Shown here in pieces: positions 24,322-45,816 of a stretch of 45,816 nucleotides of DNA. Position 1 is the first letter of the stretch. Every line of letters starts with the position of its first letter. Source of the DNA: Verrucomicrobiota bacterium (GTDB lineage: Bacteria > Verrucomicrobiota > Verrucomicrobiia > Verrucomicrobiales > DEV007); assembly GCA_002862135.1 (NCBI GenBank), contig PKCI01000120.1:1-45816 (forward strand), written 5' to 3'. The position numbers and the translations under genes are program-made. The notes below the pieces were generated by a model. That model worked only from the letters and a program-made list of their open reading frames with translations, made no database searches and was not told the DNA's origin.

Positions 24322-24325
24322 GTAA

Positions 24326-26771: not shown

Positions 26772-26774
26772 TCG

Positions 26775-28247: not shown

Positions 28248-28795
28248 TGGGTCAACCGCTGTCGGCTTGTCCCTACCTTCCGGAAGTCACGGAAGTGCTT
28301 CGGGCTTCGGCATTGAAGGAACTGGGTTCAGATCGTGGGCCAGCTTTCTATCAGCGTGCGCTGGAATGCGGACAGTCGCTTTGGCAACAGGGGTTGCCGG
28401 CTCAGTCAATGCTCATGATGAACCGGGCTTTCGCTGCGGATCTGGCGGGAGATGAGCCGGTCCTCAGTGAATGGCCACTTCCCTATCTCGGCATGAAGTG
28501 GGTCATGCAGGCCCGCCTCGAAGATCAGTTTATCGGGAATCCACGCCGTCATTTCCAGCATCTCGCCACTCGTATGGTGGAGCCGAGGAAGGATTTACGT
28601 TCCTGGAGAGCCTGGGGCTGCTGGTGGCTGTCCTGCCAGGTCTTTCCGGATTATCCTGCTGATGCAGAGCAGATCAAAAACGAAGGAGTGGTAGAACCTT
28701 TGTTCGGAGAAATTGAAGAGAACTTAGCCCGGGTCGGCTTGGACGGAGAAGTTGAGATCTGGCGGCTCGCTACTCGTCCATTTCCTGGATCGTAG
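28247..28795 (+). CDS. Uncharacterised protein ending the gpgS operon
   Basis: 182 residues from the ATG at 28247, which overlaps the previous stop as TGATG; a GTG one codon earlier is possible. No family recognised. Soluble, helical, Trp-rich: ERALECGQSLWQQGLPAQSMLMMNRAF, WPLPYLGMKWVMQARLEDQFIGNP, RRHFQHLATRM and SWRAWGCWWLSCQVFPDYPADAEQI are the most striking stretches (the first is cited in part). Coupling to the CBM9-like gene suggests a shared role. Its 3' end overlaps the 3' end of the convergent kinase gene by 26 bases. Confidence 0.7.
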   Translation: MGQPLSACPYLPEVTEVLRASALKELGSDRGPAFYQRALECGQSLWQQGLPAQSMLMMNRAFAADLAGDEPVLSEWPLPYLGMKWVMQARLEDQFIGNPRRHFQHLATRMVEPRKDLRSWRAWGCWWLSCQVFPDYPADAEQIKNEGVVEPLFGEIEENLARVGLDGEVEIWRLATRPFPGS

Positions 28796-30974
28796 AGAGG
28801 ATCTCGTTGTAATCGATAACGTTCGCCTGAACGTCAGGGCGGTAACGAACCTCCGAAGGAAGGCGGCCAATCAGTGTGATTGCCTGTTCGAGGTAGAAAT
28901 TTGCGAGCGAGCGTGAGGACTCATTCTCCAGCTCGAGAGCCTGGGCAGCGAGGGAGTAGGCTTCGGCGAGGGCCACCTTGATTTCCGGATCGTAGGGGCG
29001 AAGGCTGGATCGTTCTTCGCGAAGTTTGATTTCTTCCCGGAAGAGAACGAGGGCGGCTTCAGGTTGTTTCTGCTCGAGTTGAATTCGTCCCAGCGAATTC
29101 AGCGCAGCAATGTAGGAGTCACTACCTTCCTCTGCCACGGAAGGGGAGGCGTCCACAAGCGACTCCGCGAGGACCATGAGACGTTGGAAGGTCGCGGAGG
29201 CGGCATCGAGGTCTCCAAATTTGTGCTCAATTTCACCTTTCTGTCTTAGGGTTTGAATTGCTTCGATGATAAGATTGTAAGCGCCGCTCTCCTCCGAATG
29301 GGCGATCTTATCCTCAAGGATGAGATAGAGTTCTTCGAGTGCTTCAATGGCCGGCTCTTCTTCTCCATTGTTAGAGTAGGCCCGGCTGATGGCACGGTAA
29401 GTTTGAGCCAGTTCGCGATCACGCTGTCTGCGAAACGAATTCTGTCCCGGTCGGGCGCCTGTATCTTTGAGGCGCCAGTCTCGGGCATTAGTGAAGGCGG
29501 CGATGGCATCTACGTAATTCTCTTTAAGTTCATGGATTTTGCCGATCTCCATGAGGGCGCGTGCAGTGAGGGCTTGAAAATTAACAGGAAGGGTCTCGAG
29601 CGCTTTCCTGTCCCCGGCCAGTTCGGAGTGAATTTCGTAGGCTGCGGTGAATTCTTTCAGCGCTTCATCGAAGTTACCTCGTTTGCGATATCCGATCGCA
29701 CTGGTGAACGCTGTCTGGGCAGAGAAGTATAGAAGCTTCGCGGAGTCGGGACTGTTCTTCTTGCGGTTTTCCACGAATGTGGATGCATTGTCAGCCACGA
29801 TCTGGTAAAGCTGATCTGCTTCAGCTCCGGAAATTTCCCCGCTGTTCAATTCACGGACAAAGAGGGAAATCAGGTCCATCGCAGCAGCTGCGCTTTCTCT
29901 GGACTCGTTCATGGCAGCTTCGGCCTTCTCGGTCGCCGTCTTCGCTTTCTGTGCCTGGACAAATGCAAATCCGGAGGCCCAGATCGCAACGACTAGTAAA
30001 GTGGCAAAAATCGTATTGAGGCGGCGGGCTTTCTTCACGACAGCCTGCTGGTCGAGGTGCTGAATTCTGGCCCAGACTTCGCGCATGTCGGCGGGACGTT
30101 TTTTTGGGTCTAGTTCAAGACACTGTTCGATCAGTTCCTTTCGATCGCTCGGGACGTAGAAGTCGGCAGGCCAGTTGATCTCCTCGACGGCCTCCATCAT
30201 TGTGGCGAGTTGATCGCCATCAATGGCATTGCCGGTTTCCGCCATGGTTGCCTCGAGACTGGCTTCGACCAGAGTGGCGTTAGGATCAAAGCTAGTACGT
30301 TCTGCCATCGACAAAATCTGGAGACGGGGAAGATCTCCGGTGAGGAGCTTGAAAGCGAGAACGCCAAAGCTGTAGACATCCCAACGAAAGCCTTTGCCGT
30401 CGGCTGAGTCGCGGGGATCACGGAGTTGCTCGGGGCTCGCGTAGAGTGGTGTGCCAACCGGTTCGAACCCTTCAGCTGCGAGGCCACGGCTTTGACCGAA
30501 GTCACAGATCTTGATGTGATAGGGAATCTCGTCGGTCAGCAGGATATTCGACGGCTTGATGTCGCAGTGAATAATCTGGTGCTGGTGCAAATAGGCAAGA
30601 GCATCGGCGATGTCACGAGTGATACGCCAGCCCTCGCGGTGATCGACGTGCCCGACGATGCGCTCAAGGGTTCGTGTCTCCCAGCTTCCTTCGAGATCCT
30701 GATCCGCGTGGAGGCCCATCGCGTAGTAGGGCGGTTCGTGGAGTAGGTCGAAATCGTGCAGGGTGACGATACCCTGGTGTTCGGCGACCTGAGAGAGCTT
30801 TTCCAGCTCGCGTGCCATAGCTGAGAGATCGACGGCGCCTGGTCTGAAGATCTTGAGGGCTCGATCGGAAATCCCACGGTAGGTGGCTCGAAATACCCGT
30901 CCATAGGCTCCCTCCCCAAGGGGAGGGGTGTGGACCTGGTAGTCTTTGATTCGGATGTTTTCTTCTTCGGGCAC
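28770..30974 (-). CDS. Membrane Ser/Thr protein kinase with TPR-type sensor region
   Basis: A 734-residue PknB-like kinase, start GTG at 30974. Kinase domain about 10-305: glycine loop GEGAYGRVF (20-28), ATP lysine K41, catalytic loop HCDIKPSN (136-143; Cys replaces the Arg of HRD, so non-RD), DFG 158-160, GTPLYASPEQL (174-184). One transmembrane helix at about 320-339, then an Ala/Glu-rich coiled coil and several TPR-like repeats (EALKEFTAAYEIHSELAG; ATFQRLMVLAESLVD), predicted periplasmic. It phosphorylates unknown Ser/Thr targets; the FHA domain of the adjacent upstream cyclase is an obvious candidate reader. Last gene of the long minus-strand operon, 9 bases after the cyclase stop. Confidence 0.93.
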   Translation of the reverse strand: MPEEENIRIKDYQVHTPPLGEGAYGRVFRATYRGISDRALKIFRPGAVDLSAMARELEKLSQVAEHQGIVTLHDFDLLHEPPYYAMGLHADQDLEGSWETRTLERIVGHVDHREGWRITRDIADALAYLHQHQIIHCDIKPSNILLTDEIPYHIKICDFGQSRGLAAEGFEPVGTPLYASPEQLRDPRDSADGKGFRWDVYSFGVLAFKLLTGDLPRLQILSMAERTSFDPNATLVEASLEATMAETGNAIDGDQLATMMEAVEEINWPADFYVPSDRKELIEQCLELDPKKRPADMREVWARIQHLDQQAVVKKARRLNTIFATLLVVAIWASGFAFVQAQKAKTATEKAEAAMNESRESAAAAMDLISLFVRELNSGEISGAEADQLYQIVADNASTFVENRKKNSPDSAKLLYFSAQTAFTSAIGYRKRGNFDEALKEFTAAYEIHSELAGDRKALETLPVNFQALTARALMEIGKIHELKENYVDAIAAFTNARDWRLKDTGARPGQNSFRRQRDRELAQTYRAISRAYSNNGEEEPAIEALEELYLILEDKIAHSEESGAYNLIIEAIQTLRQKGEIEHKFGDLDAASATFQRLMVLAESLVDASPSVAEEGSDSYIAALNSLGRIQLEQKQPEAALVLFREEIKLREERSSLRPYDPEIKVALAEAYSLAAQALELENESSRSLANFYLEQAITLIGRLPSEVRYRPDVQANVIDYNEILSTIQEMDE

Positions 30975-30983
30975 GGCAGTGTA

Positions 30984-32900
30984 TTACTTCGAAAGGCTTT
31001 GAATTTCTCCGCCCCAGTTGGACGCCGGAGGATCTTGCCGGAAACTTTCGGTTTTGTCGATCAACCAAGCGGTCGGTGGATCCCCTTCGGGCAAGGTCTC
31101 CAGCAGGTCGAGGGCTTCGTTCCATTTTCGCTGATGGAACAGCTCGAGAGCGGTTTCGTAGGTCCGTGCGTCCTCGTCAGAAATTCCGGAGCCACCCTGT
31201 GACTTCGGCAGGATGAGTTCGTGGATCGGATAGCTCTCTTCAAAGCCGACGGGGCGGATCTGGCAAAGGCGGCGGAACCTGCGATTTCCGATGCCTTCGA
31301 TGCGCAGGTAAGTTTCATCTGAAATGAGAATCGGAATGCGGAACTCCTTGGCGATACGTTCAAGGCGGGCGCCGAGATTGGCAACGCTTCCAAACACAGA
31401 GATATGCCACTGCTGAGTCGGGCCGGTCTTTCCAACGGCGATTCGGCCGGTACTGATTCCGATTCGAACCGCAGACATATCGCGGCCGAGTTCTTCCTCA
31501 TATTCAACGCGATCTGAGAGGCGCTTGATGATGGCTTCGGCCGCTTCCACTGCTTCGAGGGAGTGTTGAGTCTTCTCTTCTTCGATGTTGGGCCAGCCCC
31601 AAAGACCAAGAGCTCCGTCACCGGCGAAGTCGGTCACCACGCCTTTGCTGTTGAATACCTCTTCGGTGATGAGTCCCACCACGCCCTGGTTCTCGTTGAG
31701 GCGGTCGAGTATTTCGTGATCGCTACGAGCAAGTTCGAGCATGCGGGAGTGACCACGACGATCGGCAAACATCACGGTAACATCGACCATGGCGGGTTCG
31801 AGAACGGTCTGATCGAGCCGTTGCATCAGCTTGCGAAGACCGGGCGAGAAGTAGGTCGCCATCTGGTCTTGAAGCTTCTGGTCGGCCCGTGAGGAAAGCA
31901 GGCTGGCTACCAGCGAACTAATGAGGCGAAGAAAAGGAACGAAAGCTGCCGCGGTTGTTTCCGATGCTTGGCGCGTCTCCACATACAGGTAGATCGGTCG
32001 GCGGTGTTCATCGCGATAGATCTCGGCGGATTCGTCGAGGCTTGCGACCGGTAGGATACAAACCCAGTCGATCTTGTCACCGAGACTTTCGGCACTGAAA
32101 ACTTTGGAGTGTTCCTTGGAGGACCAGATGTGAATATCAGCTGGCTCGGGGTTCTCGATATTGAGACGTTTCAGCAAGGTTCGACTGGGGCGAAAGTCGG
32201 CTCGCGCGAGGGGATCGGGATTGAGAACTTCGATCTCGAGGTTGCTGTCGTTGGGGTCGAGCGCTACGAAAGTTGCGCTGACGCCCTTTTGTCCGGGCAG
32301 CGCGTTTTCAAGAAACACGGCTGCGCGGGTGAAGAGGTCAGTTTCGTTGGTCCAGCCAGAGAGCACCTGTTCAGGCAGTTCGCGTTGAAGAAGTTTTAGT
32401 TGGAGACGCAGGCTGTATTCATCGAGCTGCTCGACTTCGTCGTAGTCCTGTCTGGTGATCGGTTCCGCCTCGTAGCTCTCCTTTTCAGTTTCGAGTGATT
32501 GCTGGTAGCGCTCGATCTCGCTGTCGAGATCACCCAAACTCTTGAGCCAGTAAATGGCTGTGTTTCCCTTGGTGCCAATGACAGCAGAGCTACCATAGTT
32601 CAGGGTGACGGGTTCCTGCATAAGCTCGCGGTCACGTGGAGCCTCGTTGGAATAGAGTGCGTTCGGCTTGCTGCGTCCGGGCAGGGCCGGGAGTCGATTG
32701 AGTTGGAGAGACTCGCCGGTGCACATGGCTTCGCAGTGATTTCGGCTGACGAGTCGGTCATTCCAGCTGATGCGGAGGACGTCAACAGGTTCCTCCGGCA
32801 GGCTCTCAGGCTTGCGACCAATGAGTATAATACGGCCATCCTTTGCCTGGGCTATGGCCATTTCACGTGGGTTCTCCAAATTGACGGCGACGAGATACAT
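30984..32900 (-). CDS. FHA-domain class III nucleotidyl cyclase
   Basis: 638 residues from ATG 32900 (TTG 32927 is an alternative). Domains: FHA at about 15-118 with SRNH (52-55); a GAF-like region 160-330; cyclase catalytic domain about 370-525; a C-terminal TPR-like tail. Both metal-binding Asp are present (D380 in FADRRGHSRM, D428 in AGDG), as are the transition-state Asn and Arg (N508, R512 in ANLGARLE). The two purine-selecting residues are not standard: the usual Lys of the DKFIGD-type motif aligns with Asp (TDFAGDG) and the usual Asp/Thr of RxDYT aligns with His (QQWHISVFG). The product, cAMP, cGMP or other, is therefore open. No transmembrane segment. Between lipB and the kinase. Confidence 0.88.
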   Translation of the reverse strand: MYLVAVNLENPREMAIAQAKDGRIILIGRKPESLPEEPVDVLRISWNDRLVSRNHCEAMCTGESLQLNRLPALPGRSKPNALYSNEAPRDRELMQEPVTLNYGSSAVIGTKGNTAIYWLKSLGDLDSEIERYQQSLETEKESYEAEPITRQDYDEVEQLDEYSLRLQLKLLQRELPEQVLSGWTNETDLFTRAAVFLENALPGQKGVSATFVALDPNDSNLEIEVLNPDPLARADFRPSRTLLKRLNIENPEPADIHIWSSKEHSKVFSAESLGDKIDWVCILPVASLDESAEIYRDEHRRPIYLYVETRQASETTAAAFVPFLRLISSLVASLLSSRADQKLQDQMATYFSPGLRKLMQRLDQTVLEPAMVDVTVMFADRRGHSRMLELARSDHEILDRLNENQGVVGLITEEVFNSKGVVTDFAGDGALGLWGWPNIEEEKTQHSLEAVEAAEAIIKRLSDRVEYEEELGRDMSAVRIGISTGRIAVGKTGPTQQWHISVFGSVANLGARLERIAKEFRIPILISDETYLRIEGIGNRRFRRLCQIRPVGFEESYPIHELILPKSQGGSGISDEDARTYETALELFHQRKWNEALDLLETLPEGDPPTAWLIDKTESFRQDPPASNWGGEIQSLSK

Positions 32901-32936
32901 AGCGGTAGGCTGAAAAGCAGAAATCAAGACAGTTGG

Positions 32937-33563
32937 TCAGGATGTGCGGAGGGCGTCGAGACCAGATCTGATGAAAGGTTCGATTCTACTGGCCGCCTCT
33001 TCGGTGGTTAGATCGTGTTTCGATTCAGTTTCGAGCGAAGTCATGGAGACATCCGAGATACCGCATGGGACTATGGCTTCGTAGCCATGGAGGTCGCGTG
33101 AAACGTTGAGCCCGAATCCGTGCATGGAGATCCATTTGCGGACGCCAACGCCGATCGAGGCGAGTTTTCGGTCGGCGATCCAGACTCCAGTGAGTCCTGT
33201 TCTCCGGCGGGAAACGATACCAAATTCTGCGACAAAATCAATCAGGATCGACTCGATTTCACGAAGATAAGTGTGCAGATCTTTGCCGTAGGCATTGAGG
33301 TCGAGAATCAGGTAACCTACGAGCTGACCGGGGCCGTGGAAGGTGGCCTGGCCCCCACGATTAGTCTCGAAAATCGGGTAGGGTAGGTTATCGGGATTGA
33401 TAAGCGAGGAGCGATCGCGGGTGCGACCGATCGTGTAGACCGGCTCGTGCTCCAGCAGCAGGACCGTATCAGGGGAACTTCCTTCGAGTCGCTTCTCAAC
33501 GAGCTCATTCTGCAGCTCGAGTCCTTCCTGGTATGATATTCTACCTAACCAACGAAAATCCAT
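32937..33563 (-). CDS. lipB: Octanoyl-[acyl carrier protein]:protein N-octanoyltransferase
   Basis: 208 residues, complete LipB, which moves octanoate from ACP to the lipoyl domains of 2-oxoacid dehydrogenases and GcvH. Seen: RGGQATFHGPGQLVGY (69-84), the catalytic lysine K133 in DRKLASIGVGV, HGFGLNVS (148-155) and the acyl-thioester cysteine C167 in PCGIS. Length is typical. Its place inside an operon of envelope and signalling genes is unusual; lipA is not in the window. It starts 18 bases after the upstream gene and ends 36 bases before the cyclase ATG. Confidence 0.96.
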   Translation of the reverse strand: MDFRWLGRISYQEGLELQNELVEKRLEGSSPDTVLLLEHEPVYTIGRTRDRSSLINPDNLPYPIFETNRGGQATFHGPGQLVGYLILDLNAYGKDLHTYLREIESILIDFVAEFGIVSRRRTGLTGVWIADRKLASIGVGVRKWISMHGFGLNVSRDLHGYEAIVPCGISDVSMTSLETESKHDLTTEEAASRIEPFIRSGLDALRTS

Positions 33564-33581
33564 TGAGGATAGAGTCCGCCC

Positions 33582-34649
33582 TCAGGGCGCTTCGTCAACG
33601 GTTTCGTCGCGTTGATAGATTGGGAGCTGCCGGTAGGGGACGGTGAAAGAAAGGACCATCATTGACGTGCCGTAGGTGCCTCCGTTGCGGCCATTGGACC
33701 AGGAGCCGTTCGATTGCTGCTTGGGAACGTATTCTCCGTACATCCAGTCGGCGTATTGAGCCCAGTAACGACCTCCCAGTTGGAACATGGCCTGGGCGTT
33801 GTAGTAGTTGGCGTAGTATTCGTGGGCATTTTGTATAATTGTCTGTCGGTGCTTGAGAATGAAATCGCCGGCACGGTAGGTCGACTTGGTGCCGTGATAA
33901 CCACAGAGCTCGAGGCAAAGAAGACCGCACCCTGTCAGTGTTTCGGAATGACCCCAGGGATCGGTGTAGCCGAAACGGCCTTCTTCCTTGTCGTGATTGG
34001 AAAGCACATAGGCCACCGCATCCTCAATCGCGCGGTCTGGGATGGGAGCGCCGTTAAGCTTGGCTGACCGCAAGGCCATGAGAGCCCAACCGCTACACGA
34101 GAGATCGGCATCGCGGGAGTCGGCCTTGTATCGCCAACCTCCCTGGTGCTTTTCCGTCTTGGGAACGGCCTGGGCTTGGAGAATCAGTTTTGTGGCACGG
34201 GCGAGAATAGGGCTGAGACGGGCCTGCGTCTTTGGGTCGACCATGCCGCTGCACTCAGAGAGAAAAAGTGTAGCGATGGTGTGAGCATACATAAGTCCGT
34301 GACCGGAGTCGCCCTTGTCGAGCAGACCGGTGGGCCGTTGGCTATCGAGCACGTAGTCGATGCAGCGCTGCAGGTGGTCAGCGAATTCACCTGAACCGGG
34401 AGTGTGACCGGCGGAGAGATAAGCCATTCCAACCAGAGAAACGACCCCGACAGAGCGGCCGTAAGAGTCGTTGAAGGTACCGTCAGCGGACTGGTTGGAG
34501 GCCAGGTAACGTAAAGCACGATCGACAGCCGATTCGACGCCTTCCTGATGCTTCAGGAAAACGGCATTGGAGAGTGCTTTTCCCTGTCCCACAGCGCTGA
34601 AGGCGGGGAGCATTGTTACAAAGGCAAGGATGGTGATCAGGCGGATCAT
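33582..34649 (-). CDS. Secreted squalene-cyclase-like alpha/alpha-toroid protein
   Basis: 355 residues with a signal peptide (about 1-20, core LITILAFVTMLPAFSA). The mature part is a chain of prenyltransferase/squalene-oxidase repeats: LRYLASNQSADGTF, IDYVLDSQRPTGLLDKG, GGWRYKADSRDADLSCSGWA, GRFGYTDPWGHSETLTGCG and NGSWSNGRNGGTYGTSMMVL. The DxDD acid of squalene-hopene cyclases is not seen and the protein is exported, so a triterpene-cyclase activity is unlikely; a binding or scaffold role in the periplasm is more plausible. Its start overlaps the stop of the DUF4175 gene (ATGA), so the two are translationally coupled. Such proteins are common beside MoxR/Bat clusters in planctomycetes and relatives. 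Confidence 0.85.
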   Translation of the reverse strand: MIRLITILAFVTMLPAFSAVGQGKALSNAVFLKHQEGVESAVDRALRYLASNQSADGTFNDSYGRSVGVVSLVGMAYLSAGHTPGSGEFADHLQRCIDYVLDSQRPTGLLDKGDSGHGLMYAHTIATLFLSECSGMVDPKTQARLSPILARATKLILQAQAVPKTEKHQGGWRYKADSRDADLSCSGWALMALRSAKLNGAPIPDRAIEDAVAYVLSNHDKEEGRFGYTDPWGHSETLTGCGLLCLELCGYHGTKSTYRAGDFILKHRQTIIQNAHEYYANYYNAQAMFQLGGRYWAQYADWMYGEYVPKQQSNGSWSNGRNGGTYGTSMMVLSFTVPYRQLPIYQRDETVDEAP

Positions 34650-37600
34650 TCTTTACCTGCCTCCTTTGCGATTACCTGGAAATAGCGGCCCACGAGTTCG
34701 CGATACTCTACGGGCAGGTCAGTTTCGATGCCAGCAGCGTTGCCGCCGGAGATCGCCCCCTTGAAACGCGACCAGTCCTCGGCGCTGATACCCATGGCCT
34801 TGAGCTCCGACGGAATGCCGCTGCCGTCGGCATCGGCGGTCTTCTCTCCTGATTCATTCAAGTTGAGTGATCCGTCAGGTTCCGAGGCTAGTTCAGGATT
34901 GGAATTGGGTTGGTCCGAATCGGCCATGCCTTGGTTCTGGCCCTGGGCCCCGAGTTTTCTCATCGCGTTCTGGGCGAGCTGCTGAAGCGAGTCGGCGGCC
35001 TGCTGGGCCTGCTGAGAAGCCTGCTGGGCATCCTGCGACTGGGCGGATTCGGTGACATCGTTGAAGCCCTCAGCCATCTCTCCGCTGTCAGCGACCTGGC
35101 CGCCATCATCGGAAGGTTGGAGCTGTTCCTGGCTCTGGGCCAGCGAGTTGGCGGAGGCTTCGAGTGCTCCGGAAGCCCGATCGAGTGCCTGGGCAGCTTG
35201 CTGCTGCTCCTGCGCCGCACGCTGCATGGCTTGCTGGGCAGGTTGAGAAAGCTCTCCGCTCTCGAGCTGGCCGCTGGACTGAGCTTGGTCCTGCATCTGT
35301 TCGGCATTGGCGAGATGCTGCGCGGCGTCCTTAGCTTCGTTAGCGCCCTGGTTCAGGGCCTGTTTGGCGCGGTCGGCAGCGCTCCTGGCGCTGTGTTGAT
35401 CCAGACTCTGGAGGGTCTCCTCGAGTGAGTTGGTTTCGTTACGAAGCGCTTGGGCATCGGCCTGGAGTTGGGCTTCTATCGCGCTCAAGGCTTGCTGCAA
35501 ATCCCCGTCCCGAACCATCTCGATCTGTTCGGTAATAGCGTCCTGACGCTGGGCCAGATCACTAATGGATGGCAGGGGAGGGTTCGGGACTTCAGGCTGA
35601 TTGCCTTCGGTCGCGGCGGGTTGGTCACCAGCCTCGGCCATTTCCGGCTCGCCGGGGCTGGCTTCTGATGAGGACGGGTCAGAGGAACTTGATTCAGAGG
35701 GGGCTGCTGCATCGGAGGCTGCCGCTTCAGCCATGGACTCACTGGCGTCGTTGGCCGAATCGGCGGCCGATTCTAGGTTGTCATTCGCGAGTTGCTCGGC
35801 CGTTTCGCTGGCCTGATTGGAGGCTTCCGCCAGTTTTTCGGAAGGTTTGTTTTCCTGCCGCTCTGCGGGCGTTGTGTCAGGATCAGAAACGTTAGGTTTC
35901 GGGGACTGTGGCTTATTTGCAGCGGCCTCGGATTGGTCCTGTATTTGGGAAGCGAGTATTTCCTGCTCCATTTGCAAGTGATCGATGAGTTGTTCACGGA
36001 GTGCCTCCTGCTTTGCCGCGTTACTCTGGGTGGCTTCCTCGTTGAGTGCCTTGAGGTCCTTTTGTTTCTCCGCCAGAGCGTCGGCTGCGGCAGCGAGTTG
36101 CTGGGCGCGTTCCAGCTGGGCGCCGAGGACTTCTTCGAGAGCCTCAGAGTTATCCTGCAGCATTTCACCGAGTTGTTCCTGGACCTGCTTCTGTTGATTG
36201 CGGAACTGGTTCATCTGCTGATTGGCCAGTTCTTCAAGCTTCTGCTGAGTGAACTCACGGGTGGCCTGATCGATAGCGGCCTCGCGTTGCGCTTTCTCCC
36301 GCGACATTTCTTCAGCGCGGTTGGCGAGTTCCTGCTGGCGAGTGGCGAGATCGTTGAGCTCGGAGATCATGTCAAACGTTTCGCTTGCTTCGCGCATCGC
36401 TTCGGCAATTTCATCGATACCCTTGATGGCTTCCTCGATTTGCTTGCGGGCCTTCTGAGACTTTTCGATGCGTTCTGACTTGTTGTCCGTCACCGGAATC
36501 ATATCCGAAGTTTCGCGAGCCTTGGCGACTTCTTCGTTGGCGATGGCTTTGGCTTTGTCGGCCTGCTCCTGGAGAAAGGAGTCATCGAGGGAGGCGGCAA
36601 CCTTGTCGAGTTCCGTTTGTGCGTTCTCGGCGTTCTCTGAGAATTGCTTGAGAGGGCGCATCGCTCGCTCGGAGACGTCGTCAGTGCGCTTCAGCTCCTG
36701 CTCAGCGCGACGCATTCCGTCGCGGGCTTTCTCGAGGTCCTGCTTGGCCTTACGTAATTGCTCCTCGACCGCTTTCTTTTTCGCCTCGACCGCCTGCTGG
36801 GCCAGCGTCTTGGCATTGACATCCAGGGTGATGAAGAAGGGTTCGCTCACGCCCTCGCCGGGTCCGTCATAGGACTCGGGACGGCTGTCGCGGACCATGA
36901 CCTGAACGCCAAGTCGACGCTGGATGCCATTCACTTTAATTTTATTGAGGTTCAGCGTGGCGTTGGAGACATAAGTCTCTGCAATCCGAGTTGCCGTGGG
37001 CAGTTCGATCGGGATTTCCTCGGGACGATCGGCACCAATGGGAGTGATGAGAAAGGCGGCATCCTTGAAACCAAAGTCTTCGATAATCTCGCTGATGACC
37101 GGAAGCTGTTCGGTGGGGCGGAGACGTAGCTCCCGCTCGACGGGTTGGGTGACAATCACGGAGGGAGATTTGTCAGGGAGCACTTCGAGGGGATAGGTGG
37201 GTGGCTGATTGGTGAAGCCCTCTGCGTCGGTGAGTTCGATTTTCCAATGGCCGTTCATGCCCGGCATGAGATCGAATTGCCATTGCAAGCTGCCTTCGAC
37301 CAGCTGCGGTTCACCGAGGTCGGCTCCGTCGTTGAGAACGAGCCTGGCCATTTCGATCTCCTTGGTGGGTGCCGTGGTCAGGGTAACGTGGGTGTTGGCG
37401 ACCGCCCGAATCTCGCCCGTCTCGGTGATGGCTGTCTTTGTCTCAAGATTGGTGTAGTCGGGATAATTGTATTCGACTTCGATCTGGCCGATAGCGGGCG
37501 GGACAACGGTGGTGACTTCATAGTAACGAGTCAGGGCCAAACCGGCCCGCAGGCGGTAGGTGAAATCTTCTCCGACAGCGGGAAAAGAGATTGAAAACTG

Positions 37601-38383: not shown

Positions 38384-38402
38384 TTGAATTCAGTGTTCGT
38401 GA

Positions 38403-41400
38403 TTAAACAAGACCGCTGCGTCGGCGCACGATCCATTCTGTGGTTAGAAAGCCCAAAAAGGCGAGTAACATCGACCAGGTATCCCAGAGCGTGATGTTGC
38501 GTTGTTCGGTCAGGATTTCTTTAGGTGCTCCAAACGAAGTAAGCAGAGATTCCAGATCGTGGAGCTCAGCGAGGCGGCCTCCGGTGAGCTGGGTGGCGTG
38601 ATTAAGAAAATTGCGATCGGCGGTGAGTTCGGCGAGTTCGACCGGGTTCCTAGTCGAGACAACCAGGAGCTCGGTTGAGATCGTGTCGGGGCCGTCAGGG
38701 TTCGCGGCAACGGACTGGTCGATCGCTTTTCCGGCAAGGCGCAGTTCGTAGTTGCCTTCGCGGGACAGATTGGGAAGGCTCGTCTCATAGAGGCCGGAAG
38801 AACCGCTGCGATAGCTCATGCGCTGTTGATTGAGACGGACGCCGTCTTTCCAGACTTCGGCTTTAATCTCGGCGTCGGTGACAGGGCGGCGCTCGGCGTC
38901 GAGAACCTTTGCGGTGACCGTGACTGGATCATCCGGGGTGTAGCTGAGGCGGTTGGAACCGAGCCGGATCAACTCGCCACCGGAGCGCAGGTTGGGGCCG
39001 GCACCCCAGCGCATCACCTGTCCCCAGAAGCGGTGATGGTAGGTGTCGCCGACGCCGTAGCGAAAGCGCCAGCTCTGGTCGGAGTTCAGGAAGAGCACCT
39101 TGCCGAGACCTGCCCGGATCGTCGAAATGACAGCATTGTTCTGCTCTAGTGTTTTGCGATTGGCGAGTTGCTCAATGGCGGCCTCAACCGAACCGGGGGA
39201 GCCGTCTGGTGCGATGTTGCCGTTCAGGCTGACAGATCCGATGGGGAGGGCAAAGGCGAGCACCTCGGCAGTTTCTTTGACGCCGTCGGCGACGAAGCGC
39301 CATTGCATCGGTTGAAATTCATTCCAGCGATCGAGGTTGAGCGCGCGACTGCTCGACTGCGAAGTGACGGCGTGGGACTGACCGGTCGAAGTGAGTTCGA
39401 TCTTGAAGGACGATTCCGGAGAGTCGAAGCGGGCTTCGCTGTCAGCCGTGTAGTTGATCGGCAGCAGCGTCTGCAGCGTCTCATTGCTGTGGGCGTGGGG
39501 CATGTAGCGTGCGCCGGCCACACAGACAAGCATGGCTCCGCGGCGGGTGACCGCTTCGCTAACCGACTGCCAGTCTCGTGAACTGAGCGCATCGGGTTTT
39601 ATGTCACCTAGAATGATGACGTCGAAGAGTTGCCACTCTTCCGGGGTGCGGGGAAGCTTGGTCGCTTCAGCTTCGCCGAAGGGGCGGGCGGCGCTGGCGT
39701 AAACAGGTTTGTGTTCCGGGGCCCGGTAAATCTCGTCCGGATTCATCAGCACATACTGGAGGTGGACGGACTTGTCTCTTCCGTAGAAAAGGTTGCGCAG
39801 GTATCTGAATTCCCATCTGGGGTATCCGTCGACGAGAAGAACGTTGGTGCGGTCGTCAGTTACGGCGACTTTGAAATCCCACGCATTGTTGTTCTTAAAC
39901 AATTCGCCTTCGTCGGGCTTGACGAAGATCTGGTAATCGAGAATGCCCTTTTCCTCAGGGCGATGAACGAAGCGAAGTTCGGAGCGGAAGTCGACGTCGG
40001 AGATTTCCAGAGTCTGGGTTTCCACCACCGCACCGTTGCAGAGCAGTTCGGCTTCGATGGTTTCGCCAAGCAAGCCGTTGGCTTTGATCTCCGCTCCGAC
40101 GACAACGCGGTCGTCGAGATAAATGGATTCGGGCGCCTTGAGGTCGAGGATTGAAAGGTCGATGGGACCAAGACGGCTACCGACCGGAACAGCACAGAGA
40201 GGGGTGTTCTGCACCGCGAGTTGGCGGAGGCTGTCTTCGGGAAGCGTTTGACTGTTTGAACGGCCGTCCGAGAGAAGAAGGACGCCAGCGAGTGATTCCG
40301 GTGCGGTGGTATCAAGAACGTGTTCGAGTGCACTGGTGAGATTAGTCTGGGTGCGTGTGGGGTCAGTGTTGAGCGAGCCAGTGAAGGCCGATACATCGGA
40401 GAGATCTTTGAATGGAGCGACGTCCTGAGCGAAGCGGTAGAAACGCAGGTTGTAGTCTTCGCTAAGTCGATTCAACAGGGTCTGGTCGTTCACTGAACCC
40501 TCGTGGGTTTCTTCTTCAGCGGGTGAGACGGTTGACTCGAGAACACGTCTTGCCAGTTCGAGCCGGGTAATGTTGGCGGCCTGGTCGATCCGCGAACGGG
40601 CGTCCTCGGGTAGGGCGCGGTAGTAGTGGTCGTCAGCCTTAAGGGTGGTTGTCGGCAAGGTGTGGCGCACCGACTCGAGCTCGATGCGGGCGACTTTGAT
40701 CTGCTTAAGAAGTTCGGGCGCGTTGTTGGACTCGAGAGCCTTCTTCGCCGTTCCAAGGATGCGGGTGATGCCGTCGCGACTGCGCTTTTGATAGTCGATA
40801 AGGCGATCCGCGACTTCATCAGGAAAGGGCTCCTGGCGGGTTTGCTCAAGAAGTTCATTCAGCGAAAGATTGGTTTCGAAGAGCAAGTCGATCAGTTCGG
40901 TGAGTTGGGCAACCCGGCTTTCGACAGCGGCTTCGGGACTGGGCGCCGCTTCAAAGGCGCGAACTTCGTGGGCAAAGTGTGAATCGATGGATTCGACAAG
41001 GTTGCTGATTTCGCGAAGCGGAGGTCGATCTGCGAGCTCGGGAACATGGGAAAGGGCGGCGCGGTCGAGGCGTTCCGAAGCATTGAGGCGTTGGTCGGCC
41101 AGGAGCATCGAGTCGGATTCATCGACGAGAATGGCCACTTCCCGTTCGATCTCGCGGGATTCAAGAAAGGAGCGAACTGGTTGGGCGAGAACTAGCAAAA
41201 GAATGATGAGCGCAGCTAAACGCAGTCCGAGGAGAAAGCGACCTTTGCCCGGTGGAACGAGGGTTCTCTCAAAATGGTAGAGACCCACGATCCATTCGAT
41301 GGCGATTCCTCCGGCGAGGGCGAGGCCAAGCAGCGGCCACGAGGTGGCGAGGGCGAGCGTCTGGGCCAGGATCTGGAGTGCAGCCCAGCATCCAACTCCG

Positions 41401-41558
41401 GCGAGGGCGGCCCCGGCGATATGCCAGCTGAAGTGAGGAAGGCGTTTCAGCGCCGAGTGGGCCGCAAACCACAGGACGATGCTGATCACCAGCATCGCAC
41501 TGAGCGCGCCCACTCCCAGAGCGGTGAGATCGTCTCGACTATAATCTTCCGGATTCAA
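38403..41558 (-). CDS. vWA membrane protein with glutamine-amidotransferase-like domain
   Basis: 1051 residues, start TTG at 41558, 12 bases after the upstream stop; the next ATG would cut the first membrane helix. About four N-terminal helices (14-34, 46-67, 72-92, 108-127) and one near the C-terminus (WDTWSMLLAFLGFLTTEWIV). A von Willebrand A fold follows the fourth helix: MIDAS DESDS at 146-150, the Thr region TNLTSA at about 405 and LLLSDGRS (D431). About 200 helical residues (roughly 160-365) are inserted inside the vWA domain. Then a beta domain, an amidotransferase-like Rossmann domain (NVLLVDGYPRWEFRYLRNLF ... FDVIILGDIKPDALS) without the catalytic triad, and an Ig-like domain. Likely a periplasm-facing partner of MoxR. 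Confidence 0.85.
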   Translation of the reverse strand: MNPEDYSRDDLTALGVGALSAMLVISIVLWFAAHSALKRLPHFSWHIAGAALAGVGCWAALQILAQTLALATSWPLLGLALAGGIAIEWIVGLYHFERTLVPPGKGRFLLGLRLAALIILLLVLAQPVRSFLESREIEREVAILVDESDSMLLADQRLNASERLDRAALSHVPELADRPPLREISNLVESIDSHFAHEVRAFEAAPSPEAAVESRVAQLTELIDLLFETNLSLNELLEQTRQEPFPDEVADRLIDYQKRSRDGITRILGTAKKALESNNAPELLKQIKVARIELESVRHTLPTTTLKADDHYYRALPEDARSRIDQAANITRLELARRVLESTVSPAEEETHEGSVNDQTLLNRLSEDYNLRFYRFAQDVAPFKDLSDVSAFTGSLNTDPTRTQTNLTSALEHVLDTTAPESLAGVLLLSDGRSNSQTLPEDSLRQLAVQNTPLCAVPVGSRLGPIDLSILDLKAPESIYLDDRVVVGAEIKANGLLGETIEAELLCNGAVVETQTLEISDVDFRSELRFVHRPEEKGILDYQIFVKPDEGELFKNNNAWDFKVAVTDDRTNVLLVDGYPRWEFRYLRNLFYGRDKSVHLQYVLMNPDEIYRAPEHKPVYASAARPFGEAEATKLPRTPEEWQLFDVIILGDIKPDALSSRDWQSVSEAVTRRGAMLVCVAGARYMPHAHSNETLQTLLPINYTADSEARFDSPESSFKIELTSTGQSHAVTSQSSSRALNLDRWNEFQPMQWRFVADGVKETAEVLAFALPIGSVSLNGNIAPDGSPGSVEAAIEQLANRKTLEQNNAVISTIRAGLGKVLFLNSDQSWRFRYGVGDTYHHRFWGQVMRWGAGPNLRSGGELIRLGSNRLSYTPDDPVTVTAKVLDAERRPVTDAEIKAEVWKDGVRLNQQRMSYRSGSSGLYETSLPNLSREGNYELRLAGKAIDQSVAANPDGPDTISTELLVVSTRNPVELAELTADRNFLNHATQLTGGRLAELHDLESLLTSFGAPKEILTEQRNITLWDTWSMLLAFLGFLTTEWIVRRRSGLV

Positions 41559-41570
41559 AGAGTGGTAGTG

Positions 41571-44500
41571 TTAGCCTGCTTTCCCCATCTTGACGAGTTG
41601 CTCGCGGAACTTGGTGGACGGGGCGTCCTTGGATTCAAACTGGATCGTGATATCTTCTCCCATCCGTCGGCTGTGGGCGATCCAGCGCGAAAGAGTGACT
41701 TCAAGAAGGAGGAAAAGGAAGGCGCCGATCGCTAGGTAGCGCCAGAGTTCCTGGCCGAACTGGTTTCCGTTAAGAAATCCAACCAACTCCTCAAGAGTCT
41801 GTGGCTGTGATAGGGTCACGAAGTTACTAATAAAGTGGTAGTCAGTTTCGGAGAGTTTCTTTAACTGGCTCTCGTTTTCGTTACGTCGGACCGTGAAGGG
41901 GATTTCGGAACCTTCTTCAACAAGGAAATGTGAGAAGAAAAGGCGCTGCTCTTCAGGGACAACGAGGTGGTAGAGGCCCGAGGAAATTTCGCCCTGCAGT
42001 TTGAGGACAGATCCGGTCCCGACCGAAGCAAGTTGAGCGGTGCGGGGTCGACCCCCGGGGCCCTTGACCTGGTAGGAGGTGAGCAATGACTGGCGGCCAG
42101 CTTCACCCTCTCTCAGAGAGAAAGTGCGGAAGGCGCGGGAGGGAATTACCTGCTGGGCGATGGAGTCAGATTCCCACATCAGGGTTGCCTTGGCGTCTCC
42201 GCCTTCGTCCTCGAAAATGGCGTGGAAGTCATACCATTTGTCGCCTTCGAATTTGAAGCCGATCTGCTTGCGGCTGCCGGGTGACTGGAAATCTCCAATG
42301 TGCTTGCTGTTGATCGTGACGTTCAGCCTTCCGTCGAGGTCGGCGATGAAGGCATAGCGATTTGTCTCGGGGAATTGTATGCTGCCTTCCCATTCAACGC
42401 GGAAGTTGTCGGCCGGGATGCCTGCGGCCGGTGTGCTGTTGCGCCAGTCGAATCTGATGGAATCGTCAGTTTTCACATGAGAAGGTTCTTTGGTATAGCT
42501 GTCTTGGTAATATTTGCCGACCAGGCCTTGCCCGATGGCGCGGCCACGGCGTCCCGCGAGATTGATGCTGATCTCCCATCCCGGGTCGAGGTTTAGTACG
42601 TAGGCGGTCGGATCAGCGAGGTAGTAGACCAGTTCGTGGAGGTAGGGCAAAAACGCCTGGCGGGTGACGAGATTTCCTGACGTGAGGTCGAGCGGTATGC
42701 TTGTCAGGATGACCTGTCCCCGGCCAAGTTGACGGTTGGAAAGAAGGATCGCGCCGTTGTTCAGACGGGCGCCGATCGAGGTGATGCGATTGAGGGATTC
42801 CGGAACTTCCTGCCCGCGGTAGTTCGTGATGAACGTCTCGAGGAAATCGCTTTTGCCAGGCGCGGCGACTTTGCGAAGAGCTGGGTGGGTGAGTGAGCCG
42901 GGAGAGGGAGCGAAGTGCTCTCCGGTGTTGGCGACGGTGGGTTGGTCGTCGAGCAGGGCGGGAAGTACCGGAAGCCCGTCTCCAAGTTTCCACTGGTTGT
43001 AGAAGTCAGGCTGGGACTTGTGACCGGCAGCCACGAGTAGGCCGCCTCCACTGCGAACGTAGGAAACTAGTGCTTTGGCAGTTGCCTTTGGAAGACGGGG
43101 GACGTCTCCGAGGATGACAGCGTCGTAGGCTTCGAATTCCGAAATGGTGGCTATCTCGGGCGCTTTGATGACGACGGGTTCGACCAGGAATTCGATGAGA
43201 TCGAGGGTGGGGTCGTAGAACATGTCAAAGTTGTCGGACGACTCATCAGCAACAGCTTCGTTATTGGCCTTTAGAGTAGGGTCGAGAGTGAGGGATGAAG
43301 GAGCCAGAGCAACTGCGGCAAAGGTCGACGCCCGGTCAAGCACCCGGCCGTAAGGACGTCCGTCGACGATGAGTACCTTTAGACGATCGGCGACGTTCGT
43401 GGCGTAGAAATTCTTGTTGTCGGTGGCGATGTCATCCTGAACCTCGAGTTCAGCCGAGACATAGTGAGCGCCGGGATCGGAGAACTTGTGGGAAAAGGTG
43501 ACGGTTTGTTTTTCTCCGGGTTGGAGCTGGGCGATGGATTGGTCCCGGTAGGGGCGGTTTTCTCCGACGGAAAGAAGCAGGGCACCCGGGGTGACAGCTT
43601 CGTTGCCGGTATTGCGAACTGTGACGGAGATGTCGACGGGGCGGTCGACCCCAACAATCTCGCGTGAAAAAGTGACATCAGTAACGGCGAGGTTCCGGAT
43701 ATAGTCTGGTAGAGGAAGCTTGCGAAGCAGGATCTGTGGCTCGGTGGTGAGATTCTGGAAGGCATCGCGCAGAAAACTCCATTGGCCGGCTTTGCCGATT
43801 TCCCAGCCGATATTTTGTTCATCGGTCAGGATAATAATTTGTTTCGCCGGATTGTCACCGCGGGCAAGACTGAGTGAGGCCAGCGTGAAAGTCTGGTAGG
43901 TCGCCATGGCACCGTCGATAGGAGCGAGATCATTGAGGGCGGTTTCGAGCTCGGCGCGATCGGTGGTGGGGTCGAGAATGATACCGGTCGGTGACGGGCC
44001 GCCGAGGATTAGACTGAAGGCATGCCCGCGTGGAGCGCGCTTGATCAGAGTTCGTGCTTCCTTGACTGCTCTTTCGAAATTGGTCTCGCCGTTGGCCATG
44101 ATGGACATGGAGGTCGAACCATCAATGATCAGCGCCACATCCTGTCGGGCTCCCGGGGTGAAGCGGGAGAGATTGAGGTATTTCTCAAACGCGATCAGAC
44201 CGATGCAGGATAGCAGCAGGATAATCGAGGTTCCCCCGATCCGTTGTTGCCACTTCTTTTCACCGTGAAGAACCACCGCAACACCCAGACCGACGACGCC
44301 GATCAGCATGACGGGGAGAATGACGATCCAGGGAATAGTCGTCCCCGGCGGAATGAACGGTCTCGCCAGCGCCAGTGCGAGGAGACCGACGAGGAGGCAT
44401 CGCGTCGCCATGAGAAGCGCTTCCTCGAGTTGGATGCGGCGGCTCCGAATCTCGAGTGACTCAAGCAGAAAGTTCATCGCACCCCAGTCGACGATCTTCT

Positions 44501-44585
44501 TGGAACGGCGATTAAGCAGGTGAATGATGATCGGAATGGCAATCGCAAGAGCTCCGATCACGAGCGCTGTATTAAGGAACAACAA
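41571..44585 (-). CDS. BatA-like vWA membrane protein carrying a PA14 domain
   Basis: 1004 residues, TTG start at 44585, 3 bases after the DUF58 stop. The N-terminus has the BatA signature (IPIIIHLLNRRSKKIVDWGA, 17-36) and four helices; vWA domain about 148-290 with MIDAS DGSTS (155-159) and LTDEQN; a CARDB-like beta domain 295-395; an amidotransferase-like Rossmann domain about 400-655 (LKVLIVDGRPYG, YDAVILGDVPRLP, GGGLLVAAG). Residues about 686-822 form a PA14-type beta-barrel: GLVGKYYQDSYTKEPSHVK, FRVEWEGSIQFPETNRYAF, IADLDGRLNVTINSKHI. A last helix at 949-965 and a cytosolic tail follow. PA14 domains usually bind carbohydrate; finding one in a BatA-like protein suggests recognition of cell-wall or surface glycan. 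Confidence 0.88.
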   Translation of the reverse strand: MLFLNTALVIGALAIAIPIIIHLLNRRSKKIVDWGAMNFLLESLEIRSRRIQLEEALLMATRCLLVGLLALALARPFIPPGTTIPWIVILPVMLIGVVGLGVAVVLHGEKKWQQRIGGTSIILLLSCIGLIAFEKYLNLSRFTPGARQDVALIIDGSTSMSIMANGETNFERAVKEARTLIKRAPRGHAFSLILGGPSPTGIILDPTTDRAELETALNDLAPIDGAMATYQTFTLASLSLARGDNPAKQIIILTDEQNIGWEIGKAGQWSFLRDAFQNLTTEPQILLRKLPLPDYIRNLAVTDVTFSREIVGVDRPVDISVTVRNTGNEAVTPGALLLSVGENRPYRDQSIAQLQPGEKQTVTFSHKFSDPGAHYVSAELEVQDDIATDNKNFYATNVADRLKVLIVDGRPYGRVLDRASTFAAVALAPSSLTLDPTLKANNEAVADESSDNFDMFYDPTLDLIEFLVEPVVIKAPEIATISEFEAYDAVILGDVPRLPKATAKALVSYVRSGGGLLVAAGHKSQPDFYNQWKLGDGLPVLPALLDDQPTVANTGEHFAPSPGSLTHPALRKVAAPGKSDFLETFITNYRGQEVPESLNRITSIGARLNNGAILLSNRQLGRGQVILTSIPLDLTSGNLVTRQAFLPYLHELVYYLADPTAYVLNLDPGWEISINLAGRRGRAIGQGLVGKYYQDSYTKEPSHVKTDDSIRFDWRNSTPAAGIPADNFRVEWEGSIQFPETNRYAFIADLDGRLNVTINSKHIGDFQSPGSRKQIGFKFEGDKWYDFHAIFEDEGGDAKATLMWESDSIAQQVIPSRAFRTFSLREGEAGRQSLLTSYQVKGPGGRPRTAQLASVGTGSVLKLQGEISSGLYHLVVPEEQRLFFSHFLVEEGSEIPFTVRRNENESQLKKLSETDYHFISNFVTLSQPQTLEELVGFLNGNQFGQELWRYLAIGAFLFLLLEVTLSRWIAHSRRMGEDITIQFESKDAPSTKFREQLVKMGKAG

Positions 44586-44588
44586 GGA

Positions 44589-45521
44589 TCAGGTCTTTCT
44601 TTGGGAGAAGTAGGTAAATAACGCCTCCGGCACTCCGGTCTTAGTATTGATTGGGACGTAGTCCGCCTGCATCTGGCCGCAGGCCAGTTCCATGGCCTTG
44701 AGGTGCTCGCGGACACGGTCGAGATAAGACGCCCGGATTGTCGAAGGGTCGATGTTGAGCTTACGGCCCTCGACTTCGAGGCAGCGAAAGTCGTCAAAGT
44801 TTTCGAAGGGGAAAGTCAATTCCTCTGCCGCCATGAGATGGAAAACGACGAGTTCATGGTTCTTATAGCGGAAGTGATGGAGCGCGTTCTTGATGGCTTC
44901 GGCATCATCGAAAAGGTCACTGATCACAATGACGAGCCCGCGTGGCGGAATTCGTTCGGCGATCTCGTGAAAGGTATCGGCGCAACGGGTGTCCTCTGTG
45001 GAATTAGTGTTAGACAGTTCTTCAAGAATAGCGCGGACCTGGCTCGGTTTTGCTGTGGGGCGCAGGTAGCGCTTAATGCCATCAGCAAAGGTGACGAGGC
45101 CGACGGCATCCTGCTGTCGGATCAAGAGGTAGGTCAGTGCGGCGGTGAGGTAGCGCCCGTATTCAAACTTGGAGAGGCATTCGCATCCGCCCAGCGAAGT
45201 TGCTTCGTCGCCGGAATAGGCCATCGACCCCGACGCATCTAGGAGTATGGTGACCCTCATGTTGGTCTCCTCGATGAATTGCTTGATGTAGTAACGGTCG
45301 CTTTTGCCGTAGATCCGCCAGTCGAGATTGCGGAGGTCGTCTCCGCTCACGTATTGGCGGTGTTCGGCGAACTCAACCGAGAACCCTTTGTGGGGGCTGG
45401 AGTGGCGCCCGTTGATGGTGCCTTCCTTCGCGCTGCGCGCGAGGAATTCCAACCGGGTGATCATGTTGATGATCTCGCCCGGAAGCAGCTCGGTGAAGGC
45501 GGGTGTCGCGCTTTCCGGCAT
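44589..45521 (-). CDS. DUF58 protein (MoxR/Bat cluster)
   Basis: 310 residues from the ATG at 45521; a GTG at 45545 would overlap moxR by 20 bases and add 8 residues. DUF58 signature: GRHSSPHKGFSVEFAEHRQY with GDDLRNLDWRIYGKSDRYYI in the N-terminal half, then a vWA-like fold with the MIDAS-type DASGS (95-99), VGLVTFADG and IVISDLFDD. No membrane helix, so cytosolic. DUF58 proteins are regularly encoded between a MoxR ATPase and Bat membrane proteins and are thought to link the AAA+ chaperone to its vWA partners. Start 4 bases after the moxR stop. Confidence 0.93.
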   Translation of the reverse strand: MPESATPAFTELLPGEIINMITRLEFLARSAKEGTINGRHSSPHKGFSVEFAEHRQYVSGDDLRNLDWRIYGKSDRYYIKQFIEETNMRVTILLDASGSMAYSGDEATSLGGCECLSKFEYGRYLTAALTYLLIRQQDAVGLVTFADGIKRYLRPTAKPSQVRAILEELSNTNSTEDTRCADTFHEIAERIPPRGLVIVISDLFDDAEAIKNALHHFRYKNHELVVFHLMAAEELTFPFENFDDFRCLEVEGRKLNIDPSTIRASYLDRVREHLKAMELACGQMQADYVPINTKTGVPEALFTYFSQRKT

Positions 45522-45525
45522 GGAA

Positions 45526-45816
45526 TCAGACGTCGAGGTCAGCACTCGGCTGGAACTGGTCGACCAGCATGGTGACGATGTCGTCGCTGGTGACCCCGGC
45601 GGCCTCCGCGTTGAACGTTGTCAGAACGCGGTGACGCAGCACGGGGTGAGCCACGGCGCGTACATCGGCGGTAGTCGTGTGATATCGTCCCTGGAGAATG
45701 GCGCGGGCCTTGGCGGCAAGAACGAGGTAAATGCCGGCTCGTGGGCCAGCACCCCAGGAAACCATTTCTTTGACGAAATCAGGAGCTCCCTCCTCTTTGG
45801 GCCGGGAGGCTCGAGC
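45526..45816 (-). CDS. MoxR-family AAA+ ATPase, C-terminal part
   Basis: The frame is open to the edge of the window, so only about 96 C-terminal residues are seen: ARASRPKEEGAPDFVKE followed by MVSWGAGPRAGIYLVLAAKA, GRYHTTTADVRAVAHPVLRHR and a short tail. WGAGPRAG-x-x-LVLAAKA and PVLRHR are the hallmark of the MoxR lid domain. Walker A and B motifs lie outside the window. MoxR ATPases act as chaperones that load metals or cofactors or remodel vWA proteins; the following genes supply DUF58 and vWA partners. An internal ATG at 45765 is not the true start. Confidence 0.93.
   Translation of the reverse strand, partial: ARASRPKEEGAPDFVKEMVSWGAGPRAGIYLVLAAKARAILQGRYHTTTADVRAVAHPVLRHRVLTTFNAEAAGVTSDDIVTMLVDQFQPSADLDV

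Follow-up and report, generated by a model that had tools for sequence, protein, structure and literature searches.

The window analyzed here is an entire contig (PKCI01000120.1) of 45,816 bases from a Verrucomicrobiota bacterium, whose assembly amounts to 3.48 Mb in 239 contigs. It carries a long run of minus-strand genes in which a MoxR/von Willebrand factor A (vWA) cluster is followed by signaling genes. The run extends from position 45816 to 28770 and opens with the 3'-terminal 291 bases of moxR; eight complete genes follow head to tail and encode a DUF58 protein, two large vWA-type membrane proteins, a DUF4175-like protein, an alpha/alpha toroid, the octanoyltransferase LipB, a protein combining a forkhead-associated (FHA) domain with a class III cyclase (FHA-cyclase) and a Ser/Thr kinase. 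The intergenic gaps, measured from each stop codon to the next start with the ATG starts of the DUF58 and FHA-cyclase genes, are 4, 3, 12, 19, -4, 18, 36 and 9 bases in this order. A scan of positions 28600-45816 located no minus-strand terminator-like site at the junctions, as all five such sites are intragenic. In the same region neither promoter-like sites (6 versus 4.7 in shuffles, standard deviation 2.0) nor terminator-like sites (17 versus 19.5, standard deviation 4.8) were enriched, and Rfam at gathering scores returned no match anywhere in the window. The original prediction was confirmed in its nine minus-strand genes, its gap range of -4 to 36 bases and its lack of a junction terminator, with the correction that moxR is not a whole gene here.

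The first six genes form the MoxR/vWA core. Only the 3' part of moxR with the AAA lid is present (45526..45816; AAA_lid_2 65.6 bits) and it is cut by the contig end; complete open reading frames (ORFs) of moxR length (345-362 amino acids) occupy the same place in the five relatives examined (loci L028, L030, L037, L039 and L033). The order moxR, DUF58, BatA of MoxR/Bat clusters is found in the window and in relatives, with moxR complete in the relatives only. The DUF58 protein (44589..45521, ATG start; PF01882 114 bits, VWA_2 33.8 bits) displays no hydrophobic segment by hydrophobicity, and an alternative GTG start at 45545 would overlap moxR. It is followed by a BatA-like membrane vWA protein (41571..44585) with BatA, VWA_2, CARDB and PA14 matches above cut-off and hydrophobic segments close to each end. 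The best solved relative by sequence of its PA14 domain (42147..42530; PF07691, residues 686-813) is the PA14 chain of the anti-sigma factor RsgI3, and the other 15 sequences matched by the BatA-like protein are likewise confined to the PA14 stretch. The second large vWA-like membrane protein (38403..41558, 1051 amino acids) contains several hydrophobic segments. Pfam VWA did not match any of nine orthologues at E 0.01; the positions that correspond to a metal ion-dependent adhesion site (MIDAS), namely D146, S148 and S150 (DxSxS), T405 and D431, are invariant in nine rows, and a profile match to the BatA-like protein (93.8%) covers the CARDB and following region of the latter. Approximately 160 additional residues (near 162-324) past the first MIDAS motif are absent from the aligned version of genome G125. 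The DUF4175-like protein (34646..38383) scores 17.0 bits with PF13779, below the cut-off of 27.3, and combines N-terminal hydrophobic segments with an extended Q/A/E-rich tail. The toroid (33582..34649), the terminal gene of this older core, is of the squalene-cyclase kind: SQHop_cyclase models match five of nine orthologues at E 0.01, while the scores for a squalene/oxidosqualene cyclase stay below the family cut-off (33.4 versus 322.7 bits; Pfam 19.6 versus 26.1). A hydrophobic segment at residues 1-22 suggests that the protein is probably secreted.

LipB (32937..33563) is identified by TIGR00214 (165 bits, cut-off 83.55) and by an LplA-B_cat match above cut-off in Pfam. Residues K133 and C167, presumably the catalytic Lys and Cys, are kept in 25/25 sequences; these were the first 25 loci of the genus used for residue checks, which were then extended to 41 loci for the FHA-cyclase, eleven of them from other genera. 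LipB has no hydrophobic segment by hydrophobicity. A search of 12 genomes of the genus gave a single lipB match in ten of them, the one studied here included; the other two genomes are 53% and 69% complete. lipA is encoded elsewhere in the genome, and lipB lies distant from the DUF58 locus in G013, G015 and G016. lipB is the housekeeping octanoyltransferase gene of the cell.

The FHA-cyclase (30984..32900, ATG start) consists of an N-terminal FHA domain, a linker and a C-terminal cyclase domain. The FHA region (32544..32900) is divergent, and the original call of an FHA domain was upheld by profile-profile comparison. Aligned by hhalign with 32 FHA domains from members of the order it reached 94.6% with a score of 47.5; three unrelated alignments stayed at or below 2.0%, and the 20 column shuffles did not exceed 7.2% or a score of 21.1. 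FHA domains are marked by the motif positions GR, SRxH and N. Among sequences with letters at these positions, G37, R38, R62, H64 and N89 are kept in 40/40 and S61 in 38/40. A GAF domain was considered for the stretch between the FHA and cyclase domains, which gave an empty result in a PDB sequence search and no match to the GAF model; one weaker hydrophobic segment was noted at residues 325-346. The cyclase domain (31299..31787; PF00211 34.3 bits, cut-off 21.9) retains D389, D437, N517 and R521, the metal-binding Asp pair, the Asn and the Arg, in 41/41 sequences, so that the family match, the two metal Asp residues and the Asn-Arg pair of a class III nucleotide cyclase are all present. The base-recognition site differs from that of adenylate cyclases. 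D433, aligned with the Lys of chains 3r5g and 1wc0, takes the place of the base-site Lys, and S510 that of the Thr, in 41/41. Because Asp replaces the Lys throughout, the protein is probably not an adenylate cyclase. In guanylate cyclases a Glu is described in place of the adenylate-cyclase Lys together with a variable second site, Ser included (PMC4215837). The second-site Ser of the FHA-cyclase is among the residues seen there, and the acidic base site plus Ser make cyclic GMP (cGMP) a fair guess for the product; cGMP or a nucleotide with another base is more likely than cyclic AMP (cAMP). Six other cyclases from the same genome and from G001, G011 and G014 were aligned for comparison, three of which have Lys and Thr and three Asp and Gly. 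One of the latter three is a response-regulator cyclase of the same genome (L109:10196-11941, minus strand), which thus also has Asp for the base-site Lys. In G224, a 302-residue protein with a canonical FHA domain and a cyclase domain (L176:7085-7993, minus strand) is encoded immediately before the FHA-cyclase and kinase genes and resembles a tandem relative.

The last gene encodes a membrane Ser/Thr kinase with a tetratricopeptide repeat (TPR) C-terminus (28770..30974; TPR_12 47 bits). Its kinase domain (30090..30923) is of the Hanks type, with a PF00069 score of 123 bits versus a cut-off of 31.7 and with the Lys, the catalytic Asp and the DFG motif in place. K41 and E56 are kept in 25/25, and D138, N143 and D158 in all 24 sequences having letters there. 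The Arg of the HRD motif is replaced by Cys in 24/24 (HCD), which makes it a non-RD kinase. A single hydrophobic segment (319-341) separates the kinase domain from the TPR region (29013..29705), and from this topology the repeats are predicted to be extracytoplasmic and to face the periplasm. A PDB sequence search with the kinase profile returned nothing at E 1e-20. Most gene-family labels of the original prediction could be retained; those of DUF4175 (below cut-off), the second vWA protein (Pfam VWA unmatched) and the FHA domain (missed by PF00498, though found by profile-profile comparison) are less secure than given there.

The two parts of the locus have different distributions. Among 188 genomes of the class, a vWA relative was detected in 56 (E 1e-20) and a toroid relative in 61 (E 1e-15), and the two lie on the same strand less than 12 kb apart in at least 18 of the 51 class genomes having both among the matches listed. 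The gene order as far as the toroid is shared by 8/8 genomes of a first set that have a close DUF58 orthologue and a long enough locus (the window, G004, G005, G006, G007, G008, G010 and G011), and this exceeds chance. The same six-gene cluster from moxR to toroid is present in G013, from another family of the order, and in G125, from a third family; in both the toroid gene terminates the cluster and the following ORF runs in the opposite direction, convergent to it. In G194, from the family of G125, the core is split, with moxR to vWA on contig C3 and the DUF4175-like and toroid genes on C1 (L067, L108). The ORF past its toroid gene has the same direction, yet is none of lipB, FHA-cyclase and kinase. 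G014-G017 contain a DUF58 relative that is 37-43% identical, and no toroid within the stretch read. One toroid match (L078:6201-7095, plus strand) falls into two pieces that overlap and differ in frame, and it contains a stop, so that this gene looks broken or misassembled.

The FHA-cyclase was found in 1/188 class genomes at E 1e-30, and the listing of that draw shows no other genome of its family. Within the family it occurs in 43/74 genomes at E 1e-60, that is, in 31/33 of the genus and in 12/41 outside it, distributed over 7 of 18 genera. All 25 carriers with names are Verrucomicrobia, mostly Verrucomicrobiales or Akkermansiaceae. Gene neighborhoods were tabulated for 41 genomes, with rows short of flanking sequence dropped from each count (kinase: G274; lipB: G237; toroid: G238, G251, G237, G275, G274 and G273); G005, with its FHA gene on two contigs, and G243 and G270 are outside the table. 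The kinase gene lies at most 207 bp downstream of the FHA-cyclase gene in 37/40, which bears out the two as a conserved pair, and the FHA-cyclase plus TPR kinase pair has so far been seen only in one family. lipB is placed at most 212 bp upstream in 30/40, across three genera, at 1.5-1.9 kb in three, and was not found in seven, one of which (G273) offers 1.3 kb of flank. Variants occur in other genera (loci L182, L183 and L184): in G203 and G271 a ruvC-like ORF (a name assigned by eye) occupies the place of lipB, and the order in G227 is ruvC-like, lipB, FHA-cyclase, kinase.

The join between toroid and lipB connects the two parts. It was judged in 35 genomes that offer 3.8-13 kb of sequence before the FHA gene, or less on three short positive contigs. 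The toroid-lipB distance is below 200 bp in 14 of them and 0.6-5.8 kb in six, and 15 have no upstream toroid; outside the genus the linkage was seen in 0/8. The distance was measured only where lipB was found, and for six counted loci without lipB the absence of a toroid was read from the neighborhoods, one of them (G244) with a flank of only 3.8 kb. In 12 of the 14 close cases 21-38 bases separate the toroid and lipB BLAST segments, and the FHA-cyclases of these 12 genomes are 65-95% identical to that of the window; the corresponding distance in G005 is 31 bases. Among the inserted sequences are a DUF6807 gene in G248 and long ORFs in G008. In G001 the lipB-FHA-kinase trio adjoins a divergent unrelated ORF and the vWA genes are on a separate contig. 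The claim of a common order through all genes was substantiated for a set of close relatives. That the last three genes are conserved beside the vWA genes holds for the 14 tight loci and the six with a larger distance, and fails for the 15 unlinked genomes, including all eight outside the genus.

Four core proteins gave a tree with 19 ingroup rows, rooted on three outgroup rows. Its earliest ingroup branch contains G005, where the join is tight, and G009, whose contig is too short to judge. Five loci with inserts and G001 fall into one nested clade with a support of 100, which also holds the tight locus L099; the insertion of G248 lies outside this clade. As the tight G005 branches earliest and the broken loci are nested in one clade, one join that was later lost is the simplest account. 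In the FHA tree, which was rooted by choice on divergent genera and whose nodes within the genus are weak, the unjoined G211 and G249 of the same genus are placed outside the rest of the genus (node support 37). G244, with no lipB or toroid within 3.8 kb, groups with tight genomes (support 84), and this suggests a further loss of the join.

These observations are best explained by two modules, a reading in which we have good confidence: a younger kinase-FHA-cyclase relay, together with the housekeeping lipB, was appended to an older MoxR/vWA envelope operon and has partly become detached again. Module 1, from moxR to toroid, would be an envelope cluster of chaperone type. A cytoplasmic MoxR ring and the DUF58 protein may act on the membrane-anchored vWA proteins, with the DUF4175-like protein and the secreted toroid as further components, and MoxR would remodel a client through its vWA partners, by analogy with NorQ-NorD. 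Module 2 would comprise the membrane kinase, with its TPR tail outside the cytoplasm, and the soluble FHA-cyclase. In the proposed relay the kinase would modify Thr residues, its own or those of a partner, by phosphorylation and the FHA domain would bind them, after which the cyclase would make a cyclic nucleotide, with cGMP or another base favored over cAMP. lipB, as the octanoyltransferase gene of the cell, may simply use the common promoter. Module 2 appears to have joined behind module 1 in one genus lineage and to have been detached later in a nested clade. What the sequences show directly is which genes are present, how they are ordered, that the modules can be separated and that the catalytic residues are intact; the phospho-signal, the cyclic product, co-transcription and any effect of module 2 on module 1 are proposed on this basis. 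The original prediction was right in its observation and mostly right in its families, and wrong in the unity of the nine genes, given that the toroid closes the core in G013 and G125, that the halves are on separate contigs in G001 and that the neighbor of the toroid in G194 is none of the trio.

Several points weigh against this account. PF00498 misses the FHA region, both at E 10 in seven orthologues and in a scan of the own genome at E 1, and a PDB sequence search with the N-terminus of the FHA-cyclase returned no FHA domain; the conserved FHA Ser is replaced by Asn in 2/40. The Glu of guanylate cyclases is not found in the cyclase, where an acidic Asp stands in 41/41. Three of 40 FHA-cyclases are without a kinase gene at the short downstream distance (G249 with 1.8 kb of flank, G211 and G231; loci L172, L179 and L185). 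How often the modules joined and separated is uncertain, because the core tree is limited to genomes whose core was read and several unlinked ones, among them G252, G234, G202, G249 and G211, are outside it. Finally, toroid and lipB are neighbors, or keep their order within 6 kb, in 20/35 genomes; the join has thus persisted, and it may have a function.

The alternative that survives best is that the halves are chance neighbors that share a direction only and have separate promoters. We regard this as possible yet rather unlikely. It would fit the breakage of the locus in one clade, where neither half was lost in the genomes in which both were seen, and a precedent is the 11-ORF bat cluster of Leptospira, which can be transcribed in independent parts (PMC3557215). 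The recurrent gap of 21-38 bases between toroid and lipB in 12/14 close cases speaks against it, since so short a spacer could hardly accommodate a promoter outside the toroid gene. A single integrated system, in which the kinase senses the envelope and steers the MoxR/vWA machine through the FHA-cyclase from one transcript, would account for the common direction and very short gaps of the nine genes, for the 14/35 tight joins and 20/35 kept orders within 6 kb, and for the tight join on the earliest core-tree branch with an informative locus. A phosphorylation-dependent FHA-vWA pair is also known (ArnA-ArnB, Sulfolobus; PMC6509490). However, the core stands alone in G013 and G125, FHA-cyclases of other genera lack an upstream toroid (0/8), G001 carries the halves on separate contigs and a housekeeping lipB sits in the middle, which together render such a system quite improbable. 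A related and similarly doubtful idea is that the membrane TPR kinase and the FHA-linked cyclase, with its changed base specificity, form a relay from phosphothreonine to cyclic nucleotide that reports the envelope state, and that operon fusion in one lineage wires it to the MoxR/vWA machine and the lipoate supply. Still less is to be said for a metabolic relay in which the TPR kinase and FHA-cyclase, together with LipB, would target lipoate-dependent dehydrogenases, on the model of the PknG-OdhI control of 2-oxoglutarate dehydrogenase. OdhI is an FHA protein and is not known to have a cyclase; moreover, the kinase studied here has a membrane segment, no dehydrogenase was recognized among the window genes scanned, and lipB was not found beside the pair in 7/40 and is 1.5-1.9 kb away in three. 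In favor of this idea are the proximity of lipB to the FHA-cyclase gene in 30/40 genomes of three genera and the TPR-domain kinase PknG, which phosphorylates the dehydrogenase regulator OdhI (PMC8546545), but overall it is very unlikely. One ancient nine-gene system is rejected, as the halves are separable among relatives.

MoxR/vWA clusters are common. If the kinase-FHA-cyclase pair does report on or control an envelope-anchored machine of this kind, it would offer a way into the function of both. Should the modules prove independent, the conserved catalytic sites and the unusual base site of the pair would still allow a direct connection between Thr phosphorylation and a cyclic nucleotide to be tested. 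The locus also illustrates that short gaps alone can give two modules the appearance of one system.

Other features of the window were recorded alongside. Six plus-strand genes (23146-28795) are convergent to the kinase gene and encode an M20 peptidase, two glycosyltransferases, a HAD hydrolase, a CBM9-like protein and one unknown protein; they adjoin the kinase gene in many relatives, also in those without an upstream toroid (L080). A single minus-strand reading frame (1139-3718) holds both SecD and SecF domains.

Comparison with known systems places the two modules in different company. In the open-license PMC literature, searched by title and the start of the abstract, no paper on this gene set was found. 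The single paper found there for DUF4175 deals with an Acinetobacter division protein (PMC7481262), and a catalog of kinases with FHA targets makes no mention of a cyclase in the text available (PMC6213207). The Pycsar defense system shares a class III cyclase, and the PADLOC PycC model matches at 44 bits; this assignment was rejected, as no effector is among the PADLOC matches listed for seven window proteins, 25 of the 33 kinase matches being listed, and the neighbors are lipB and the kinase, and the PADLOC kinase matches look like generic kinase-domain matches. VMAP ternary systems combine MoxR and vWA proteins, sometimes with cyclase, FHA or kinase domains, and are described with the fixed order VMAP-MoxR-vWA and with signaling domains fused to the core (PMC7159879). 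Here, in contrast, DUF58 follows moxR and the signaling genes are separate. The ORF preceding moxR is on the opposite strand in L028 and L037, measures 212-213 amino acids in L039 and L033, and is on the same strand with 411 amino acids in L030. A VMAP-type conflict system is not favored by this gene order. Bat/MoxR clusters of Bacteroides and Leptospira resemble module 1 in having moxR, DUF58 and BatA-type membrane vWA genes in a row; the window differs by the PA14 domain in the BatA-like protein, the second vWA protein of 1051 amino acids, the DUF4175-like protein and the secreted toroid, followed by lipB and the signaling genes. Deletion of the Bat genes in Leptospira was reported to give no phenotype (PMC3557215). 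NorQ-NorD and other MoxR/vWA pairs likewise join an AAA+ MoxR protein with a vWA partner, NorQ-NorD serving metal insertion into nitric oxide reductase (PMC13036017), and by this analogy a chaperone-pair mode of action likely applies to module 1. Any link with lipB may be of the kind seen in PknG-OdhI of Actinobacteria, where a TPR kinase acts via a small regulator of 2-oxoglutarate dehydrogenase (PMC8546545), with the differences that the kinase described here has a membrane segment and that its FHA protein carries a cyclase. ArnA-ArnB of Sulfolobus is a regulatory unit based on Ser/Thr phosphorylation, in which an FHA protein binds a phosphorylated vWA protein; it is archaeal and, in the available description, comes without cyclase or MoxR, unlike the present locus (PMC6509490). 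Any link between modules 1 and 2 could resemble this pair.

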